Assembly (NCBI GenBank): GCA_902727985.1
Contig: CACVAY010000151.1
Span: forward strand, 1 to 42,629
Source: an uncultured Thiotrichaceae bacterium
Lineage (GTDB): Bacteria > Pseudomonadota > Gammaproteobacteria > Thiotrichales > Thiotrichaceae
Length of the DNA: 42,629 bases
Direction of reading: 5' to 3'
The first letter of the stretch is position 1, and each line of letters opens with the position of its first letter. Both the position numbers and the translations under genes were made by a program. The notes under the pieces were generated by a model, which was given only the letters and a program-made list of their open reading frames with translations, searched no databases and had not been told where the DNA came from. Positions 33,389 to 34,752 of this stretch are shown piece by piece.

Positions 33389-33420
33389 AGCCGAGGTATT
33401 CTATTACCTCGGCTTCTATT
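33389..33420. terminator. Bidirectional hairpin terminator
   Basis: AGCCGAGGTA and TACCTCGGCT form a perfect 10-bp stem with a 6-base loop between convergent genes. Moderately T-rich sequence follows on both strands (TTCTATT on plus, GTTTAAT on minus). It is a good shared terminator for the PPK2 and EamA genes. Confidence 0.75.
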
Positions 33421-34331
33421 CACGATACTTTTTTTCCTAATAGACTAACGCCGCCAACAACGAGTAACAGACCAATGAAGTGCGCCCATCCAAAAGGCTC
33501 ATTAAGCACAATAATGGCAATCAAGATGGTAAATAGTGGCCCCAATGTGCCGATGATACTCATTTTACTTGCACCAATTCGAGAAATAACTTCTGCCATA
33601 ATATAGCTAGGCAATACGGTGCTAAAAATAGCAAGCAAGAAAGCGTAAAGCCAAGCGTCCGTTTGGATCAATAAATTCCCAATATGATGGGTTAATAAGA
33701 AATGCACAAACACAAATCCCGTTGAAGCAAGCATGACAATACTGGTAAACATCCGGCTTCCGAATTTTTGAATGACGGGTTTACTGGATACCACATAGAT
33801 CGAATAACTCAGAGCAGACATCATTACCAAGGCAACACCAAGATGGGTATTGGCATTCCCGGCAAACGATTCTTGCGCATAGATCACCATAATTCCACTG
33901 TAAGTAAGGATCAATGCAGCAATGATGTAACGATTAATTACTTCCTTCAAAAACAACCAACCAAGTAGGGTTGTCATGATGGGATAGGTGTATAGCGTTA
34001 AACGCTCGAGTTGAGCCGTAATGTGATTTAAGCCTTCCATATCAAGAAATGACGAAAGGTAATAACCAATAAACCCAAGCAACAATATGCCGCCTAAAGG
34101 TTTGCCATTAGGTATGGGTTTTCCGAAGTTTTGATGCTTGAGAAGCCAGATTAGAATCGCCGCATAGATTGGCATTGCTATAAGCATGCGCAGTGTTAGT
34201 AACGTCACTGTGTCTATGCCCTTTGCGTAAGCGAGTTTGATGAAAATAGATTTCATCGCAAACAAGGCTGTACCAGCAACGGCTAAAACCAAGCCGACGC
34301 GTATTGATGATGCTTCTGATGTTTCCCGCAT
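33420..34331 (-). CDS. EamA/DMT-superfamily transporter
   Basis: Inner-membrane drug/metabolite transporter with ten predicted spans in two EamA repeats (about residues 5-140 and 150-295). Each repeat has the typical late-span pattern, for example LGPLFTILIAIIVLNEPFGW with the P-x-x..E motif near 265-290. The start ATG giving MRETSEASS was chosen over a TTG ten codons earlier because TGGAG lies six bases before the ATG. The protein is 303 residues. The substrate is unknown; amino acids, nucleobases or metabolites are known for relatives. Its leader (34332-34478) has unusual alternative pairings that involve the Shine-Dalgarno, so translation control by RNA structure is likely. Confidence 0.9.
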   Translation of the reverse strand: MRETSEASSIRVGLVLAVAGTALFAMKSIFIKLAYAKGIDTVTLLTLRMLIAMPIYAAILIWLLKHQNFGKPIPNGKPLGGILLLGFIGYYLSSFLDMEGLNHITAQLERLTLYTYPIMTTLLGWLFLKEVINRYIIAALILTYSGIMVIYAQESFAGNANTHLGVALVMMSALSYSIYVVSSKPVIQKFGSRMFTSIVMLASTGFVFVHFLLTHHIGNLLIQTDAWLYAFLLAIFSTVLPSYIMAEVISRIGASKMSIIGTLGPLFTILIAIIVLNEPFGWAHFIGLLLVVGGVSLLGKKVS

Positions 34332-34478
34332 GTGCTGCTCCAGAGAGGCTGCGGGATTCAAGGCTTAATCAGCTGTGGGAAGACCCCGCAGCTAATTAAG
34401 AAAAAGGAATAACTAACTGCTCCGCGTAGTGTCGAGGAGCAGCCAGAGTTTGGAAATGGTGGGTGAAAAAATATTCAT
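34332..34478 (-). promoter_or_regulatory. Structured leader of the EamA transporter with alternative pairing of the Shine-Dalgarno
   Basis: Read on the minus strand: GCTGCTCC (34443-34436) can pair with GGAGCAG (34423-34417) to give hairpin 1, or with GGAGCAGC (34341-34334), which includes the Shine-Dalgarno, to give 8 pairs. Between them lies a strong hairpin, CTTAATTAGCTG (34400-34389) with CAGCTGATTAAG (34375-34364), one G-U pair and a C-rich loop. An overlapping alternative is GCTGCGGG (34392-34385) with CCCGCAGC (34355-34348). The exclusive pairings look like a translation switch. All pairings are seen by eye; energies were not computed. The ligand or signal is unknown. Confidence 0.5.
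34413..34478 (-). CDS. Possible 21-codon leader peptide
   Basis: An ATG opens a 21-codon frame (start MNIFSPTIS, then KLWLLL, end DTTRSS) that ends in TAG right after the 3' arm of hairpin 1. A translating ribosome would cover that hairpin. It has one Trp and four Leu codons. No clear Shine-Dalgarno precedes it, and TACAAT (34493-34488) could be a -10 box placing the start of transcription almost at the ATG, so it might be leaderless. Weak evidence as a gene, but its position is suggestive. Confidence 0.3.
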   Translation of the reverse strand: MNIFSPTISKLWLLLDTTRSS

Positions 34479-34752
34479 AAGTGACCGATTGTACAATACT
34501 AACTATTAAGTTATCGCTTTTTTTGAGCATTTTTTTAAAGTTGAACCATACTTGGTTCATTAGTCGCTTTTTAAAGAACTAAGTAGTGAGGAAAAAATTA
34601 TTCTAATAAATCCTTACCTGCTTATTTTTTATAAGTAGCTTTTCGTTACAAATTAGTCCTTGAATTAGGAACTAAGGTAAACCATAGTTCGTTCAGGGTT
34701 GAGAGAATTGATCTTCGTCATTCTTTTGTTTTTCGAATGCTTGGGGTTAGAT
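34479..34752. other. Intergenic region between EamA leader and the APH-like gene
   Basis: About 270 AT-rich bases with no gene seen. It holds the dyad TGAACCA-tact-TGGTTCA (34542-34559), operator-like, and a smaller one, TCCT/AGGA around 34660. A GGGG before the ATG at 34753 is the ribosome-binding site of the next gene. Confidence 0.5.
34542..34559. repeat. Operator-like dyad TGAACCA/TGGTTCA
   Basis: Seven-base arms with a 4-base spacer, total 18 bases, in the divergent region between the EamA gene and the APH-like gene. Size and spacing fit a dimeric helix-turn-helix regulator. No such regulator is next to it. Confidence 0.35.

Follow-up and report, generated by a model that had tools for sequence, protein, structure and literature searches.

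Introduction

In the trpL leader of E. coli, Trp codons are located at hairpin 1, and the 1:2, 2:3 and 3:4 arms compete with one another for pairing. The erm and cat translational attenuators use a ribosome stalled on a leader peptide to free a sequestered Shine-Dalgarno (SD) sequence. In B. subtilis, the leader peptide of the anti-TRAP gene, rtpA, carries Trp codons, and a second gene of this organism, ycbK, encodes an EamA-type transporter. The leader peptide region of the anti-TRAP gene reportedly regulates its translation initiation (Chen and Yanofsky 2004), and control of ycbK translation by TRAP has been described (PMC13170310, PMC11255114). S. meliloti trpL (peTrpL) is described as leaderless, with its upstream open reading frame (uORF) starting at the 5' end (PMC7298713), and the LEU element, which precedes actinobacterial leuA, is described as containing a run of Leu codons in the leader peptide that pairs with the SD (PMC1262725).

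Here, we describe a leader preceding an EamA-family transporter gene of an uncultured Thiotrichaceae bacterium, in a stretch of 42,629 nucleotides that is referred to as a whole as the window. In common with trpL attenuators (RF00513), this leader has a short uORF whose Trp codon falls at the 5' arm of hairpin 1 (25/25 leaders of the family, and 14 loci outside it) and predicted competing helices equivalent to 1:2, 2:3 and 3:4 (A:B, B:C and C:D, favored over swapped partners in 22, 18 and 24 of the 25 leaders, respectively). It differs from trpL in its EamA target, in having mostly one Trp codon, which is fewer than in the classical leaders, and in having no terminator in the window and no Rfam match, and an arm that would gate the start codon (E1) is an added feature. 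As in S. meliloti trpL, the uORF also begins at the (predicted) 5' end. The likeness to rtpA and ycbK is that tryptophan status would govern the translation initiation of a gene, whereas the B. subtilis systems belong to another phylum and are built from T-box and TRAP. To our knowledge, these systems contain no switch between C, E1 and a start codon. The LEU element resembles the EamA leader in placing the regulatory codons of a leader peptide and the SD in alternative RNA structures, and differs from it in that it involves leucine and a pseudoknot and its codons pair directly with the SD, whereas pairing of arm A with the SD is not conserved in the EamA leader. The erm and cat attenuators share with the proposed switch a stall on the leader peptide that frees a sequestered SD; however, their arrest is antibiotic-dependent, with no amino-acid codon signal. 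None of the compared systems is known to combine all of these elements.

Organization of the leader upstream of the EamA gene

The leader and the gene lie on the minus strand and have the following observed and predicted features.

34488..34493, minus strand, -10-like box TACAAT, 9 nt 5' of the uORF start
34413..34478, minus strand, leader uORF of 21 codons, MNIFSPTISKLWLLLDTTRSS and stop; W-containing uORF in 25/25 leaders
34443..34445, minus strand, TGG (Trp codon), base of hairpin 1; invariant in the alignment of leaders
34433..34446, minus strand, arm A, 5' arm of hairpin 1 (folding and partner-swap comparison)
34413..34423, minus strand, arm B, 3' arm of hairpin 1; partners A or the left half of C
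34384..34400, minus strand, arm C; left half CTTAATTAGCTGC pairs with B or D, right half (GGGG..) with D or E1
34364..34379, minus strand, arm D, 3' arm of the 12-bp hairpin (folding and column covariation)
34347..34356, minus strand, arm E1, TCCCGCAGCC; partners C or the EamA start-codon arm
34338..34341, minus strand, SD (GGAG) of the EamA gene (sequence)
34324..34331, minus strand, arm E3, ATGCGGGA, EamA start codon and next bases (sequence and covariation)
33420..34331, minus strand, EamA-family (DMT) transporter gene, product MRETSEASS... (PF00892, 125 bits); ATG at 34331-34329

The region was predicted to fold at -57.2 kcal/mol, compared with -35.9 +/- 3.5 kcal/mol for shuffled sequences (z -6.0; 0/200 shuffles as stable), and the minimum-energy fold contained hairpins A:B and C:D plus a third, in which E1 pairs with the EamA start-codon region. 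A preliminary description of this DNA had reported that GCTGCTCC (34443-34436) is complementary both to GGAGCAG (34423-34417; 7 bp) and to the SD-holding GGAGCAGC (34341-34334; 8 bp), that a 12-bp hairpin is formed by CTTAATTAGCTG (34400-34389) and CAGCTGATTAAG (34375-34364), and that an 8-bp competitor pairs GCTGCGGG (34392-34385) with CCCGCAGC (34355-34348). All of these complementarities are present in the window, the 12-bp hairpin including one G-U pair. The 21-codon frame was also described correctly as ending exactly at hairpin 1 (34478-34413), since its TAG closes the 3' arm.

Searches of the window revealed no strict match to a sigma-70 promoter, no intrinsic terminator and no Rfam family reaching its cut-off. 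A transcription start site set by the -10-like box would leave about 2-3 nt of 5' UTR ahead of the uORF. This box lies upstream of 34423 and is kept in relatives, which argues against a transcription start downstream of that position, a case that the preliminary description had raised.

The Rfam result led us to reject a known riboswitch class. A riboswitch that binds a metabolite and belongs to no named class would be in keeping with the exclusive pairings around the SD and with the strong folding, but is very improbable: conservation lies in the uORF and in the switching arms, with no conserved unpaired core seen by eye in the alignment, the Trp codon is invariant, and no Rfam family, a comparison that covers known classes, matched at its cut-off, a search of 7 loci giving sub-threshold matches only.

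Distribution of the leader in Thiotrichaceae

An ortholog of the EamA gene (E <= 1e-30) was found in 45 of the 63 family genomes, the named relatives being Thiothrix, Leucothrix and Thiolinea; Thiolinea disciformis and Leucothrix arctica (L032, L033) are cultured species that carry the leader. Upstream DNA of all 45 orthologs was read for the leader, which was present in 25 and absent in 20; for one of the latter (G010) the gene is split across two contigs, and no leader was seen on the one that holds the start of the gene (L067). Two nearly identical leaders, L028 and L029, are both counted among the 25. A covariance model built from these leaders, consisting mostly of sequence with 5 pairs, yielded 26 matches of at least 69 bits when the 63 genomes were searched with stricter filters, namely the 25 and one in G062, with the next match at 26.5 bits. 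The 26th leader also precedes an EamA gene, the frame of which has an internal deletion. At the sensitivity of this model, each leader-bearing genome among the 63 has a single copy, with the EamA gene.

Could these elements be plain stable 5' UTRs or terminator-like hairpins that regulate nothing? The many hairpins, and the 20 of 45 orthologs that manage without a leader, would fit such a view, but the 26 leaders are tied to one gene and their mutually exclusive helices covary (see below), and we regard it as highly unlikely.

Several additional observations were made on these loci. In L119 (G062:C1:1339574-1339752), where the leader is intact and the EamA frame internally deleted, the leader has apparently outlived the gene. 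Four leaderless orthologs (L004, L014, L021 and L027) still begin with the sequence of the E3 arm (ATGCGGGA), apparently a vestige of a lost leader. Upstream of the trpE-like gene of the bacterium itself (L111), no clear similar Trp leader was seen, the sole W-containing uORF there being MTNRLRLLRWHTK. The upstream flank of L007 and the downstream flank of L093 each encode a putative DNA-3-methyladenine glycosylase I. Gene neighbors of 12 loci, judged by eye, gave no hint of the transporter substrate, and a PDB sequence search gave no match. Identity with YddG was rejected, as the model scored 23 bits (cut-off, 300).

Covariation of the alternative helices

In a swap test of the 25 leaders, pairing of each arm with its own partner was compared with the mean for partners from other genera. 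The own partner was better in 22/25 leaders for A:B, 24/25 for C:D, 21/25 for C:E1 and 23/25 for E1 with the start codon/SD. The weakest of the supported helices was B:C, for which the own partner was better in 18/25 and 35/2000 permutations were as good. Six further control pairings gave values of 12 to 16/25. For the control pairing of D with the start/SD arm, which has no place in the proposed mechanism, only 4/2000 permutations were as good, yet the own partner was better in 16/25, and the effect was not significant between genera. When arm C was split, the left half favored its own partner in 19/25 leaders with B, 20/25 with D and 13/25 with E1, and the right half in 23/25 with E1 and 19/25 with D (140/2000 permutations).

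Pairing of arm A with the SD was rejected as a conserved element, the own partner being better in 12/25 leaders with 87/2000 permutations as good. Hence, of the exclusive-pairing switch put forward in the preliminary description, the switch-like leader with covarying exclusive helices stands, whereas the pair of alternatives that it stressed, arm A with the hairpin arm or with the SD, is not the conserved one. As judged from these comparisons, the conserved start-codon switch is arm E1, predicted to pair either with C or with the start codon/SD of the EamA gene.

Column covariation was examined with arms chosen by eye and with column shuffles that leave relatedness in. For E1:E3 (17 leaders), which would provide the feature of translational attenuators that the SD/start codon lies in an alternative helix, 92.4% of the cells were paired, with 10 double-change cells, a number reached by 0/500 shuffles; the corresponding values were 90.7%, 15 cells and 0/500 for C-right:E1 (25 leaders) and 82.3%, 22 cells and 1/500 for C:D (25 leaders). 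Two of the five measures, double-change pairs and further pair types, were not above shuffles for these three helices. The count for E1:E3 omits 8 leaders whose E1, of the GATTCC type, was judged by eye to lie opposite the SD stretch, of the GGAATC type, and not opposite the codons after the ATG. RNAalifold on the full MAFFT alignment gave only 5 consensus pairs; that alignment does not bring A and B into register, and for A:B and B:C we therefore relied on the swap test alone.

Shuffle tests of single sequences were low in power. For E1:SD, 6/35 leaders had at most 15/300 shuffles as good, and for the picked E1 with upstream RNA, at most 3/300 shuffles were as good in 13/32 testable leaders, the automatic pick of E1 often being wrong. 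As the E1:SD tests mostly failed, the case for pairing of E1 with the start codon rests on covariation. Altogether, covariation supports A:B, C:D, C:E1 and E1:E3 as candidate helices, and B:C more weakly, so that the absence of covariation in relatives, against which the preliminary description had set its proposal, was not what we observed.

The upstream reading frame and its Trp codon

The W-containing uORF present in all 25 family leaders (18-33 codons), along with the covarying exclusive pairings, bears out the earlier suggestion of a leader of the leader-peptide type. The -10-like box is separated from the uORF ATG by 6-7 nt in 18/25 leaders and by 9-10 nt in 5 (9 in the window), and no box was found in 2. 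A combined -35/-10 score of at least 8/12 was obtained for 17/25 family leaders, compared with a mean of 1.8 in shuffled sequences (maximum of 6 in 300 rounds). Because the -10-like box sits so close to the ATG, we read the uORF as nearly leaderless, with at most a few nt of 5' UTR, too short to hold an SD. An objective scan for a near-leaderless uORF with Trp detected one in 22/46 regions (including L047, a misfiled region from outside the family), versus 1.18 in shuffled sequences (maximum of 5 in 200 rounds).

The TGG codon has an identical position, the base of hairpin 1, in 25/25 family uORFs. It is the single Trp codon in 23/25 leaders, including that of the window; only L011 and L018 have WW. 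The untranslated counterpart of this site in arm C is TAGC in 6/25 leaders, whereas the matching place in arm A is TGGC in 25/25, which argues that the codon is held, rather than the pairing. Residue W is followed by L in 20/25 family peptides, and the next residue is L or I in 15. Enrichment of W in the peptides (27 seen versus 4.2 expected, and 21 versus 4.0) is partly circular, because the uORFs were selected for W.

Leaders of the same EamA family outside Thiotrichaceae

The EamA gene was found at E <= 1e-30 in 53 of 369 genomes spread across the class, a count that includes the genome studied here and two others of its family. A near-leaderless W-containing uORF was present in 13 of 51 non-family regions (two of them from Alphaproteobacteria), compared with 0.71 in shuffled sequences (maximum of 4). 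With L059 and L065 added by eye and L088 dropped, this gave 14 outside loci from 12 families. The scan match L088 has a two-Trp uORF ahead of a distant EamA ortholog. Promoter scores of at least 8 were obtained for 11/14 outside loci versus 0.5 in shuffled sequences, and TTGACA was perfect in 8; most of the 14 had been picked for a -10 box and none for a -35 element.

At four of these loci (L059, L060, L065 and L093), a T run follows a GC-rich hairpin, the 5' arm of which forms an antiterminator pairing with the bases downstream of the Trp codon (1, 8, 4 and 1 of 1000 shuffles as good, respectively). In form, therefore, these four appear to be Trp attenuators before an EamA gene. The Rfam Trp_leader model, searched against 7 loci, gave a best score of 23.5 bits (L059) versus a cut-off of 41. 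For the other 10 outside loci, the best long-range pairing C:E1 was matched by at most 8/100 shuffles in 8; in L101 (61/100 shuffles as good) and L110 (56/100) it showed no excess over shuffles.

The peptides bear on the nature of the signal. The sensor could be an arrest peptide, in which the nascent W-L-(L/I) stalls the ribosome on meeting a ligand, and tRNA charging is not the signal; the TnaC peptide stalls the ribosome in this manner, with tryptophan as the ligand. The residues following W in the family, the mostly single Trp codon and the exclusively synonymous changes before W between L007 and its near relative in G062 would be expected of such a peptide, but other families do not share these residues (WLRR, WWLA, WWKY and WQFL) and a second Trp is found in 7/14 outside peptides, as in leaders that sense tRNA, and we consider this explanation doubtful. 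A broader interpretation, which we put forward tentatively and think improbable as it stands, is that near-leaderless and often single-Trp switches act on one orphan EamA gene throughout the Gammaproteobacteria, the output being a terminator or the E1 start-codon gate according to lineage, with the W-L-(L/I) peptide forming part of the sensor in addition to tRNA charging.

Proposed mechanism and predicted effects of ribosome position

The leader is probably a Trp-codon leader-peptide attenuator that controls EamA translation in response to charging of tRNA-Trp. Sequence comparison establishes the uORF with its invariant Trp codon, as well as the potential for exclusive pairings; the leader would be transcribed and translated, charging of tRNA-Trp would be the signal, and the sign of regulation proposed below is likewise conditional. 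Tryptophan is suggested as the signal because the Trp codon is invariant and because the relatives in other families are Trp attenuators.

The near-leaderless uORF would be translated while the RNA emerges. If charged tRNA-Trp were scarce, the ribosome would be held at the Trp codon and cover arm A, so that B would pair with the left half of C and block C:D, whereas a ribosome at the uORF stop codon would cover B and C:D would be able to form. Pairing of E1 with C would leave the start codon free, and pairing of E1 with the SD/start codon would close the gene. During a stall, B would lock the left half of C, D would fail to displace E1 from the right half of C, and E1 would be kept off the start codon. 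Thus, stalling would most likely open the gene, and the transporter would be made when tryptophan is short. We favor this sign because the terminator versions in other families have it and because each covarying helix then has a job.

Folding of RNA ending just after C, with at least 4 expected pairs scored as a helix, predicted B:C in 25/25 leaders when a ribosome was placed at the Trp codon, in 1/25 when it was at the stop codon (L007, which has a short uORF), and in 12/25 without a ribosome. This modeled dependence of B:C on ribosome position is the logic of an attenuator. In full-length folds, E1 was paired with the start/SD (at least 4 expected pairs) in 23/25 leaders both for free RNA and when the ribosome was placed at Trp, and in 24 with B:C forced. 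As E1 stays on the start/SD in 23-24 of the 25 leaders in all states tried, the switch is not borne out by the thermodynamics of the full-length RNA. For RNA ending after E1, C:E1 was predicted in 20/25 leaders without a ribosome and in 14/25 with B:C forced, a decrease that would favor the opposite sign.

The same switch would have the opposite sign if a finished uORF frees C to capture E1 and opens the start codon at plentiful tryptophan, and if stalling at Trp leads to formation of B:C and closes the gene, an arrangement that would suit an exporter. Apart from the prevalence of C:E1 in ribosome-free RNA ending after E1, this arrangement agrees with the full-length folds of L039 and L046, which are mainly C:E1, and with E1 often keeping GCAGC, which is complementary to the left half of C. 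However, the left half of C and E1 do not coevolve (13/25), the covarying C:D helix would be left without a clear job, and the relatives with terminators regulate the other way, making this sign possible but unlikely, and we retain the model in which stalling opens the gene.

Discussion

Our analysis indicates that the leader is real and conserved and is a candidate Trp leader-peptide switch of a known kind, in which the new elements are the target gene and the predicted start-codon gate. A search of mainly open-access literature found no report on EamA together with a leader peptide, attenuation or a uORF, and the matches for EamA, tryptophan and attenuator were apparently unrelated.

With its near-leaderless uORF, the leader would offer a compact natural setting for testing how leaderless initiation is coupled to attenuation. 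It would also extend Trp leader-peptide control beyond trp biosynthesis, the output here being translational and gated at the start codon. Finally, it points to tryptophan as a testable physiological signal for an uncharacterized family of EamA transporters.
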